A stretch of 64,000 nucleotides of DNA from an uncultured Tateyamaria sp. GTDB lineage: Bacteria > Pseudomonadota > Alphaproteobacteria > Rhodobacterales > Rhodobacteraceae. Under the pieces are notes generated by a model. That model was given only the letters and a program-made list of their open reading frames with translations. It ran no database searches and was not told the DNA's origin. Positions 58,341 through 61,060 of this stretch are shown here, in pieces. Both the position numbers and the translations under genes were made by a program. How positions within the stretch are numbered: position 1 is the stretch's first letter; each line of letters begins with the position of its first letter. Location of the stretch: the NCBI RefSeq assembly GCF_947503385.1, contig NZ_CANNDO010000003.1, positions 248,001-312,000 of the forward strand, read 5' to 3'.

Positions 58341-58455
58341 ATCGGCGCATTTTCGCCCGCCACATTTCTGCCACATTTGCGCCACTTTCCGGCCCACATT
58401 CCCTGCGATTCAGCATCCATTCGGGGGACATGACACTGGGATGGGAGTGCGCGAC

Positions 58456-58845
58456 ATGCGTGCAACGATGTTCGCCGCAGGCCTCACTTTGGCCTCTACC
58501 GCCGCCTTTGCGCAGGCACAGGAATTCACACCAACAGCACCAAACGGCCACGTGACGCTGACCAATGGTTGCGTCTACACGCGCAACGAACTGGCGCAAG
58601 GCAACGAATGGTCGCTGATCTACACGCAGGCCGGCACATCTGTGCAATGCCCGCTGACCATCTACGGACAGATCACCGCAGACCCGGCCCCGGTGCCGGA
58701 AACAGCCCAAGTGGCGGCCTATGTGCCCGACACGCAGGCCACCGGCGACACCGCGATCGTGACCAAAACCCAAGTCATCGCCGACATCGCCCCGCGTCCG
58801 CGCCTGACCTTCATTCCGTCCTATATGGTCGGCGTCTTTCGCTAA
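58456..58845 (+). CDS. Small secreted protein, tandem copy 1
   Basis: A 129-residue protein with signal MRATMFAAGLTLASTAAFAQA. The mature part has TLTNGCVYTRNELAQGNEWSLIY, then CPLTIYG and a C-terminal IPSYMVGVFR. Two cysteines may form a disulfide. A Pro/Ala/Thr linker of about 50 residues separates the core from the end. It has GGGAGT before the start. The next gene is a paralogue with a shared leader. I recognise no family. Confidence 0.7.
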   Translation: MRATMFAAGLTLASTAAFAQAQEFTPTAPNGHVTLTNGCVYTRNELAQGNEWSLIYTQAGTSVQCPLTIYGQITADPAPVPETAQVAAYVPDTQATGDTAIVTKTQVIADIAPRPRLTFIPSYMVGVFR

Positions 58846-58986
58846 GCCGACAGGTCAGGCCGCACGCCCGTTAAAGTTTTTAACGTACGCCTCTGTCTGG
58901 ACACATTGGCGTCGAAAAAACAGCCGTTTCATCCTGTAGACCCATTCCAGTGCGGGGGCACGGACACTTGGATGGGAGTACGTATG

Positions 58987-59256
58987 ATGCGTGCACTGAC
59001 AATCGCCGCTGGCCTCTGTATGGCCGCAAGCGCAGCATCGGCTTCGGCCGATCTGGAACTGGTCACACGGACCGATTCCAACCTGACCCTGAACAATGGC
59101 TGCGTTTACGCACCGGCCCAGTTCACACAGGACAACACATGGACCTTCGCTTATGCGAATGCCAACGCGCATGACACATGCCCGCTGGCCGTACGCCTGC
59201 AACAACGGGCAAACGCGCATTTCGAACCGTCCTATCTGGTCGGCGTCTACCGCTGA
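58987..59256 (+). CDS. Small secreted protein, tandem copy 2
   Basis: An 89-residue paralogue of the preceding protein. The signal is MRALTIAAGLCMAASAASA. The core matches copy 1: TLNNGCVYAPAQFTQDNTWTFAY, CPLAVRL, and the end EPSYLVGVYR, but the Pro/Ala linker is missing. I chose ATG 58987, which aligns with the start of copy 1 (ATGCGTGCA), although an adjacent ATG at 58984 exists. The 35 bp before it repeats the copy 1 leader (GGATGGGAGT). Function unknown. Confidence 0.7.
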   Translation: MRALTIAAGLCMAASAASASADLELVTRTDSNLTLNNGCVYAPAQFTQDNTWTFAYANANAHDTCPLAVRLQQRANAHFEPSYLVGVYR

Positions 59257-59324
59257 ACACCGCAACACGGCAGGCGCAATGCGCGCCCGCCCGTGCCCGG
59301 CCCGCGTCTGGATTGGGCCGCAGG

Positions 59325-60110
59325 TCAGTCGTCCGCATTGGTGCGGATATTGACCGATCCATCGCCATAACAGCGCTTTTGGCTGTTGGCTGCGGCAAAC
59401 CGCTTGTCCATCTTGATCGCGGCGGCATCTGACACCCGCCAGCCCGATCCCTGAAAGGCGCGGCGCACCGCCGTGTCGAACGGGCGCAGCGTCTGCCAGT
59501 ATTTGATAAAGGCGCCGTATTCCCCGGCCGCGTTGGTGTTCACGCCAACCGCACCCGAACCGCAGGAAAAGCCTGCGTTGACCATCGCGCGCGCCAACCC
59601 GTAGCCCCAGCAGGACGTGGTATAGAACATGCGCAGCCGGTCGCCCGCACCCAGCGCGCCAATGGCCGCCTGCACATCCGCCCACGCCACATTGCGATCC
59701 ACGAAACAGGCCTCTCCGTCCTCGCCATGGGCGTGATGCAGCATGTCGATCTCAAAAATATCGCCATCCGCCAGCAGCCCCTCCAGCACATCGACCAAAC
59801 CGTCCAACGTGGCATTGGCCCCGTTGATCACCCGCACCTCGCCATAGCTCGCCGCCAAGGCCATCCCTATGCCAATCGACGATTTCTCGATCCCGCTATA
59901 AAGCCATTTGTAGGGCCGTTCCTCGGCCTCTTCCCCGAACTCGGAAAACAGGATCAGCGCCCGTTCGGACCGCCGGATCAGCGCCTCTTCGCGGCTGTCA
60001 ATCCGGTCCTTGACCTCGTCCTTGACGTCTTTGACCGCATCCGCGACCTGACCAACGATGTTGGACAGTTTCGGGCGGCCACCCCAGCGGCGTTTACGTT
60101 TGAAACCCAT
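59325..60110 (-). CDS. Caspase-like (clan CD) protein of unknown function
   Basis: A 261-residue protein. The start at 60110 (MGFKRKRRWGG) has AAAAAAGGGA upstream. After a basic, helical N-terminus (about residues 1-48), the sequence follows the caspase-hemoglobinase fold: strand RALILFSEF, helix and strand to VRVINGANA, then strand plus catalytic-type H128-G129 (IDMLHHAHG), and strand plus C167 (RMFYTTSCWG). The H-to-C spacing of 39 fits clan CD peptidases. There is no signal peptide or membrane segment. It is divergent from a LuxR-type gene. Peptidase activity is an inference from these two motifs; substrate and partners are unknown. Confidence 0.7.
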   Translation of the reverse strand: MGFKRKRRWGGRPKLSNIVGQVADAVKDVKDEVKDRIDSREEALIRRSERALILFSEFGEEAEERPYKWLYSGIEKSSIGIGMALAASYGEVRVINGANATLDGLVDVLEGLLADGDIFEIDMLHHAHGEDGEACFVDRNVAWADVQAAIGALGAGDRLRMFYTTSCWGYGLARAMVNAGFSCGSGAVGVNTNAAGEYGAFIKYWQTLRPFDTAVRRAFQGSGWRVSDAAAIKMDKRFAAANSQKRCYGDGSVNIRTNADD

Positions 60111-60234
60111 GCAATATATCCCTTTTTTCCAATTTGGCCGACAAATGGTTTCGGCCTGAACACCCTGTTTGCTATGCAAAATTGCGCGGGGATATCCCCG
60201 TTGCCGGGGTCATTCATTTGGGGGGATTGCGCCC

Positions 60235-60957
60235 GTGTTGACAGCCAGATTGCGCGATCTCGAAGCGGCGCAGACATTCGACGAACTGTGGCAGACCGCC
60301 GTGGCCGTGCTGGACGCCGAAGGCATCGGCAGCGTCACTTACCTCACCGTGGCCGCAGACTTTTCCCAGCCGTTCTTACAGACCACAATCCCTGCGCTTT
60401 ATGACGGCTACGCCCCTGCAACCGATCCGTTCCTGCACCACTGCTGCACCAATTACGACATCACCCGGACCGGGTCGGCGTTTCTGGGGGACTATCCCTA
60501 TTTGCCCGAAGCGGCCCAGACGTTCATCAAGCGGGCAGAGGCCGTCGGGTTTCGGTCCGGTCTGGGCATTCCCGTGCGGCTTGTCGGTGCGCCGCGCTTT
60601 GGCGGGGTGAATTTTGGCACCCGGATGGAGCGGGCGGTGTTCGAGGACCGGATTGGATCGCGCGCAGAAGAATTCCGGCTGTTTGCCCTCATCCTGCATC
60701 GCCGCGTCGAGGATCTGTCGCGCCCCGTTGCGTCAGAGCCGTCGGTGATTGACGTGCCGCCCGTGCCGACGCTTGTGGCGCTCAGCCCGCGCGAACGCGA
60801 AATCATCTGGCTCACCGCCAAAGGTCTCAGCCGCAAGGAAATCGCGCGCAGTTGCAGCCTGTCGCCCCACACGGTGGCCGACTACACCCAAGCCGCCTAT
60901 CGCAAACTGGGGGTCAAAAACCGGGTCGAGGCGACCCGCGCCGTGCTTGGGATCTAA
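60235..60957 (+). CDS. LuxR-type regulator with autoinducer-domain-like N-terminus
   Basis: A 240-residue protein. The most likely start is GTG 60235, with a GGGGGG run 9 nt ahead; no ATG is in frame. The N-terminal domain resembles the acyl-homoserine-lactone-binding domain, with LYDGYAPATDPFLHHC around the ligand pocket, but the tryptophan before the DP pair is leucine. The C-terminal GerE-type HTH is LSPREREIIWLTAKGLSRKEIARSCSLSPHTVADY. No luxI-type synthase is near, so it is an orphan. It may control the divergent caspase-like gene. Confidence 0.85.
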   Translation: MLTARLRDLEAAQTFDELWQTAVAVLDAEGIGSVTYLTVAADFSQPFLQTTIPALYDGYAPATDPFLHHCCTNYDITRTGSAFLGDYPYLPEAAQTFIKRAEAVGFRSGLGIPVRLVGAPRFGGVNFGTRMERAVFEDRIGSRAEEFRLFALILHRRVEDLSRPVASEPSVIDVPPVPTLVALSPREREIIWLTAKGLSRKEIARSCSLSPHTVADYTQAAYRKLGVKNRVEATRAVLGI

Positions 60958-61060
60958 GCACCGCTCCGGGGCCCAAAGGTTGCCAAATGACTAATTGGCC
61001 GCTGTAAGCCATTGAAATTACGTCACCGCACGCCTGTCCCAGCGTGGGACAGTCGCGCCG

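Follow-up and report, generated by a model that had tools for sequence, protein, structure and literature searches.

A gene on the minus strand of the window, which is the whole 64,000-nucleotide stretch of DNA analysed here, encodes a protein of 261 amino acids that, judging from sequence comparisons and a structural model, probably represents a new family of cysteine peptidases, caspase-like but divergent. Taken in full, the explanation that we hold to be fairly likely is that of a cysteine endopeptidase of caspase-haemoglobinase-like fold, belonging to a small and scattered family that is undescribed in the libraries searched. The gene (59325-60110) was assigned from its translated open reading frame (ORF), coding statistics, relatives and conservation. 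It starts with an ATG at 60110, with AAGGGA at suitable spacing upstream. The GC content at its three codon positions is 0.63/0.47/0.76, and both this pattern and the codon usage resemble those of nearby genes, unlike those of two long antisense ORFs.

The original prediction had singled out H128-G129 and C167, spaced 39 residues apart, in this 261-residue ORF, and the observation was confirmed: the codons of the proposed catalytic His and Cys lie on the minus strand at 59727-59729 and 59610-59612, respectively, in a protein with three His and four Cys residues in total. Each residue had also been said to end a hydrophobic strand, which holds for H128 (Kyte-Doolittle mean of +1.5) and is weaker for C167, where the preceding strand, RLRMFYT, is on average not hydrophobic (mean of -0.36). 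The interpretation built on these residues is, as a whole, partly supported.

Relatives and conservation of the His-Gly and Cys residues

Single-sequence searches gave no match besides the window's own genome among 20 genomes of the genus, where the peptidase was found in none of 19 congeners (E 0.01), three weak matches among 394 genomes of the family, and six among 398 genomes of the phylum. On re-alignment the nine weak matches appeared chance-like, two of them resembling malonyl transferase and others antisense frames (by eye). One of the nine, from genome G279 (E 0.006, family search), did not reappear on re-alignment but proved to be a true relative once a profile was used.

A DNA pattern for the stretch C-terminal to C167, roughly G[AV]xG[IVM]NxNxxxEY, was scanned over the genome collection and matched 114 stretches. 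Among the 80 that were read (L032-L111), most were ribonucleotide-reductase-like (by eye) and one, L109, was a relative, from a sequence named ‘MAG: Proteobacteria bacterium isolate WB4_1_1462’. This secreted-looking protein, with a signal-like N-terminus, is 29% identical to the window protein over 232 residues (E 5e-26, for that pair alone with composition correction off), and LHG and STACYG are kept in it. The pattern that fetched L109 does not include H128, G129 or C167, so the catalytic residues played no part in finding this relative.

A two-sequence profile applied to 58 genomes of the phylum of L109 retrieved L109 again, together with three paralogues from one other genome, G816 (E 5.3e-38, 1.7e-32, and 1.1e-27), all secreted-looking and of 237-239 amino acids. 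With a five-sequence profile, 295 genomes of the window's family yielded the own genome and G279 only (the latter at E 3.2e-14), and the 398 phylum genomes yielded the own genome and no further member. A six-sequence profile found G279 alone among 264 relatives of G279, a sample in which the non-matching genomes listed overlap the earlier ones. No match was obtained by tblastn of plasmids and phages with the window protein, L109 and the fused domain of G279, no relative in scans of viral contigs, and none in a related-locus search of genome contigs from the window locus. Since the five- and six-sequence profiles gave no further members, the family is, by these searches, rare and scattered, with five distant relatives in two bacterial phyla. 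It also marks an annotation gap, as none of the profile libraries searched has a model that matches these proteins and only the motif scan led to the first relative.

In an alignment of the six members, identity to the window protein is 22-28%, and 21 of its 261 positions are invariant: M1 (which carries little meaning), R50, L52, Y89, A100, L112, D122, H128, G129, R160, Y163, C167, G169, G180, G186, N191, W205, D228, S243, G249, and I255. H128 is the sole invariant His and C167 the sole invariant Cys. The three residues H128, G129, and C167 had been named before any relative was at hand, and all are kept in the six divergent members; loss of H128 or C167 in homologues, an outcome that would have spoken against the prediction, was not seen. 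The probability that three pre-named positions are all invariant by chance is (21/261) cubed, or about 5 in 10,000, a rough figure, since conservation of Gly and Cys is common in any case. Six sequences are also a small sample, in which three are paralogues of one genome.

The similarity to peptidases might be fortuitous and the protein a taxon-restricted orphan unrelated to them. This would agree with the single-sequence searches, in which 394 genomes of the family and 398 of the phylum gave no clear relative and the one true relative scored just E 0.006. The idea is refuted in respect of homology, however, by members in two phyla that align along most of the protein and keep the dyad, and it is very improbable.

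The residue before the Cys is Ala in four of the six members, the window protein having Ser-Cys. In clan CD peptidases, the Gly beside the catalytic His is described as conserved in all families (PMC4357240), and the clostripain motif is given as His-Gly-Xn-Ala-Cys (PMC12445089).

Predicted fold and comparison with known families

AlphaFold2 gave a poor model for the window protein alone (pLDDT 36), and a better one with the window protein and L109 as two sequences (pLDDT 56, pTM 0.54). The latter predicts strands at residues 50-56, 91-96, 120-126, 159-164, and 182-186, with helices between them. H128 follows strand 3 and C167 follows strand 4 in this model. Its confidence drops to poor near the active site (residues 129-140, 166-169, and 185-209). 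In clan CD, strand 3 carries the His at its C-terminal end and strand 4 the Cys (PMC4357240), a rule which the strand order of the model fits.

When the two-sequence model was compared with the PDB by Foldseek, no match reached E 0.001. The top six rows were lipases and esterases (E 1.2e-3 to 3.5e-3), which we take to be of the SGNH type. Among the best 50 rows, 12 were caspases, C11 peptidase or Raptor, by a manual count to which one entry contributes three chains as separate rows; Raptor has a caspase-like domain. The best caspase row ranked 15th, and the C11 structure 6nag was row 21. The 12 rows had rmsd values of 4.2-9.9, only three of them below 5, and TM-scores of 0.28-0.36 by query length. 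Three rows of the viral library scored E 0.001 or better, and none was a named caspase: one protein had no name, one was called a ‘hydrolase’ and one was uncharacterised. A Megaviridae caspase followed as row 5 (E 2.1e-3, probability 1.00; rmsd of 4.5 across 148 columns), and a metacaspase-like protein came at row 23.

The leading lipase and esterase rows raise the possibility of another three-layer alpha/beta hydrolase-like fold, such as SGNH, in which His and Cys would be conserved for another reason. Their rmsd values of 11.5-13.2 contrast with those of the 12 caspase-like rows; moreover, the window family has no GDS-like Ser motif after strand 1 and no invariant Ser before S243. Because of the high rmsd and the missing Ser motif, these rows were placed second, and we consider this fold quite unlikely. 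A fold other than caspase-like, which would have counted against the prediction, is not clearly shown by the model (pTM 0.54). The caspase-like fold itself draws support from the His-Gly and Cys residues in six of six members, from the strand order and from the recurring caspases, but falls short in that no PDB row reached E 0.001 and the profile comparison with family C14 was non-significant. On balance, assignment of the window protein to clan CD appears likely.

Searched at E up to 10, the window protein had no matches in Pfam, NCBIfam or PADLOC and one match in PHROGs, at chance level (E 0.34). Three PDB sequences were matched up to E 10, the best, and the only one below E 0.01, being a CRISPR Csh2 chain (E 0.0033); this chain was absent from searches of PDB sequences with family profiles, whose best matches had E 0.075 or worse. 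With five members searched against Pfam and six against NCBIfam, the best E values were 0.11 and 0.12, respectively, and none of the matches was a peptidase. The peptidase families that thus lacked a profile match presumably include C11, C13, C25, C50, C80, and CHAT. The description of the protein as of a type not obviously described therefore holds for four profile libraries, with no credible match among PDB sequences, and no account of such a family was found in the openly licensed literature searched.

Family C14, the bacterial metacaspases and orthocaspases, resembles the window family in the putative fold and in the dyad. The window protein had no match to the Peptidase_C14 profile (PF00656) at E up to 10. 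An hhalign comparison of the family profile with one for C14, derived from 30 loci, was non-significant (P 0.2, probability 0.3%, score 15.6-16.0), with 29 of 200 column shuffles scoring as high. In these non-significant alignments the two runs agreed in placing C167 on the C14 Cys, and one of them also placed H128 on the C14 His; both residues coincided with the C14 dyad in one of 200 column shuffles. Metacaspase-like genes matching Peptidase_C14 are frequent in the family, at least one match at E 1e-10 occurring in 49 of 120 sampled genomes, with 18 in one genome; the window's genome has no Peptidase_C14 match at this threshold.

With family C11 (clostripain) the likeness consists of His-Gly-Xn-Ala-Cys in four of the six members and of the 6nag row in the fold search; on the other hand, the window protein departs from this motif through its Ser-Cys and gives no profile match. 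The likeness to clan CD in general lies in His-Gly followed by Cys, in the location after strands 3 and 4 that the moderate-confidence model predicts for the dyad and in a Cys often preceded by Ala. The window family differs in having no Pfam or NCBIfam match or credible PDB chain match, and in conserved residues of its own (R50, D122, R160, Y163, G169, N191, W205, D228, S243, and G249). Clan CD is listed with eight families, C11, C13, C14, C25, C50, C80, C84, and C123, in PMC12445089, where YabG, a protease without sequence homology to other clan members, is argued into the clan by its dyad. By the same reasoning the present family is a candidate for a further clan CD family.

The LuxR-type neighbour and the history of the locus

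A LuxR-type regulator is encoded divergently from the caspase-like gene, as had been predicted. Its gene (60235-60957, plus strand) has a GTG start, with a TTG at 60169 as a possible alternative, and the product carries both LuxR-family domains, GerE with 57.5 bits (cut-off 23.5) and Autoind_bind with 24.0 bits (cut-off 23). The genes adjoining it do not encode a synthase. At what we assume to be the Trp positions of the AHL pocket, Trp is seemingly absent from the window LuxR and six aligned relatives (by eye).

Relatives of this LuxR (E up to 1e-10) were found in 10 of 19 congeners, with 47-52% identity to it, and the peptidase in none. An IspH-like gene lies downstream of nine of the ten congener luxR genes, and an NYN-like gene upstream of nine of the ten (names by eye); within 11-18 kb around the ten genes none of the eight other window genes tested was found. 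By this comparison, the window LuxR is located away from a conserved congener luxR locus.

Further neighbours in the window are a phosphomannomutase-like gene (pgm, named by eye) and an AsmA gene. AsmA relatives are present in 18 of the 19 congeners, and a pgm match occurs inside the 1.5-kb asmA flank in 9 of these 18 loci (in L175, part of pgm only). In none of the 18 was a peptidase or LuxR match found within these flanks, so that the stretch holding both genes in the window (59257-61060) has no counterpart there. The distance between asmA and pgm is about 60 bp in two congener loci (L160 and L165) versus 2767 bp in the window. From the lack of both genes at the congener asmA loci and from the larger gap in the window, the peptidase gene, the luxR gene and probably one small secreted gene look like an addition in the window species.

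Two tandem genes for small secreted-looking proteins, also part of the original prediction, are indeed present on the other side of the peptidase gene, at 58441-58845 and 58978-59256 on the plus strand. They were assigned as ORFs, and both products have signal-like N-termini by eye. The two are paralogues, 39% identical over 85 amino acids, and belong to no Pfam family. They have in common an NGCVY motif and a C-terminal PSY(M/L)VGV(F/Y)R. In the congener whose AsmA is closest to that of the window (G406; L159, 83%), a single relative of these proteins lies between asmA and pgm.

The peptidase and luxR genes are separated by 124 bp (60111-60234), a candidate place of joint regulation in which GC-rich palindromes lie near the start of luxR. 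In the congeners, a palindrome of 20-21 bp, ATCCCC-N8/9-GGGGAT, occurs once just before luxR in 9 of the 10 loci (L022-L031; for example, L028 9335-9354), where it overlies the likely ribosome-binding site of luxR. Among 209 loci it was present in 18, all of which correspond to the nine luxR places, second copies included, and nowhere else. This palindrome is likely the operator of this LuxR subfamily. The exact sequence has no match in the window. The degenerate GC-rich palindromes of the 124-bp region are CGGGGATATCCCCG and CCCCGTTGCCGGGG, and its best palindrome arm, of 7 bp, is not significant, since 27 of 500 shuffles and 84 of 659 window stretches have an arm at least as long. Promoter and terminator scans gave one promoter versus 0.9 expected in shuffles and four terminator-like sites versus 2.6 expected.

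The DNA surrounding the other five members, in seven stretches of 14-20 kb that cover 14-54 kb per member, was searched with a profile built on the DNA-binding part of LuxR, and no such domain was found; the best match was a short helix (E 0.012) in the 14-kb stretch of one member. The window's own LuxR, as positive control, was recovered at E 8e-37. A conserved LuxR-peptidase pair was thus rejected, as the congener luxR occupies another locus without the peptidase and no LuxR-type DNA-binding domain was found in the 14-54 kb searched around each of the other five members; the original suggestion of a regulatory unit was not borne out at the level of a conserved system.

In the window species alone, the two genes could still form a quorum- or small-molecule-controlled unit in which LuxR would bind in the 124-bp region to switch the peptidase gene. 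Their divergent arrangement around a common region points that way, as does their joint presence in a stretch without match at the congener asmA locus, and the degenerate palindromes stand at the same place as the likely operator of nine of ten congener luxR genes. The separate distribution of the two genes (10 versus none of 19 congeners, with the congener luxR at another conserved locus), the lack of a LuxR-type DNA-binding domain at five genomic places, and window palindromes that lack the congener sequence and are no better than shuffles argue against such a unit, which we find doubtful. LuxR control of the caspase-like gene is possible but conjectural.

Putative mechanism and the lysozyme-fused relative

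In the caspase-like reading the window protein would form a parallel beta sheet, with H128 ending strand 3 and C167 ending strand 4, as suggested by the model of moderate quality. C167 would act as the nucleophile on a peptide bond and H128 as the base, as in clan CD, and cleavage would be site-specific. Residues 1-48 (59967-60110, minus strand) form, by alignment, an N-terminal extension with a basic start and a long helix (15-48 in the model), where four relatives have a signal-like N-terminus. Since a helical extension takes the place of a signal peptide, the window copy is probably cytoplasmic or exported by another route. Four of the five relatives look, by their sequences, like Sec-exported, single-domain proteins.

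The fifth relative, that of G279 in the window's own family, constitutes the N-terminal part of an 895-amino-acid protein, where it is followed by Phage_lysozyme (145 bits) and two stretches of Peptidase_M15_3 (142 bits). In the whole protein, lysozyme and M15 model matches were found only outside the caspase-like domain. The G279 member is in this respect similar to phage-type lysozyme/M15 endolysin-like proteins, from which the window protein differs in having no such domains. The gene cluster (L152 6543-9230 and L207 1804-3132, minus strand) includes an adjoining, separate M15_4-matching protein on the same strand, and a subtilase gene some genes off, also on that strand. This could be a cluster for export or lysis that is rich in peptidases. 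Several large proteins without a Pfam match are also encoded on the strand of the fused gene.

Because four relatives have signal-like N-termini and the fifth is fused to lysozyme and M15 domains, the substrates of the family may be components of the envelope or cell wall, or the activity may serve the maturation of such proteins. For the window protein, the two adjacent small secreted proteins would be the first candidate substrates; the occurrence of a relative of these proteins in one congener that lacks the peptidase counts against this idea. LuxR-dependent expression of the caspase-like gene would be a further, speculative step.

A protein with a caspase-like fold might also be no peptidase, acting instead as a pseudo-enzyme or in other His/Cys chemistry, such as transpeptidation or acyl transfer on envelope substrates. 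Conservation of the dyad alone does not show cleavage of peptide bonds, the model is of low quality near the active site, and the company of cell-wall enzymes in the fused relative means that the substrate may be a cell-wall peptide. His-Gly, a later Cys and an invariant Gly after it are, however, the arrangement of clan CD site-specific endopeptidases. Pseudo-forms usually lose the dyad, which is kept here. In pseudo-orthocaspases the dyad is replaced by Tyr and Ser (PMC6426788). We thus regard the non-peptidase reading as unlikely, and an endopeptidase remains preferred.

It is a distinctly unlikely, broader proposal that the endopeptidases form a ninth or further clan CD family of envelope or cell-wall enzymes, exported alone or fused to lysozyme and M15 domains, with the window form non-exported and under a LuxR-type switch. 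If true, a signal could trigger caspase-like proteolysis through this switch in the window species. An undescribed family that includes a fusion to lysozyme and M15 domains would broaden the known uses of bacterial caspase-like enzymes, and the small window protein offers a direct test case for the His/Cys dyad. With respect to the surroundings of the remaining relatives, two of the three G816 paralogues (L148 2186-3553 and L149 2250-3575, both on the minus strand) adjoin proteins resembling Hpt/histidine-kinase fusions (by eye).
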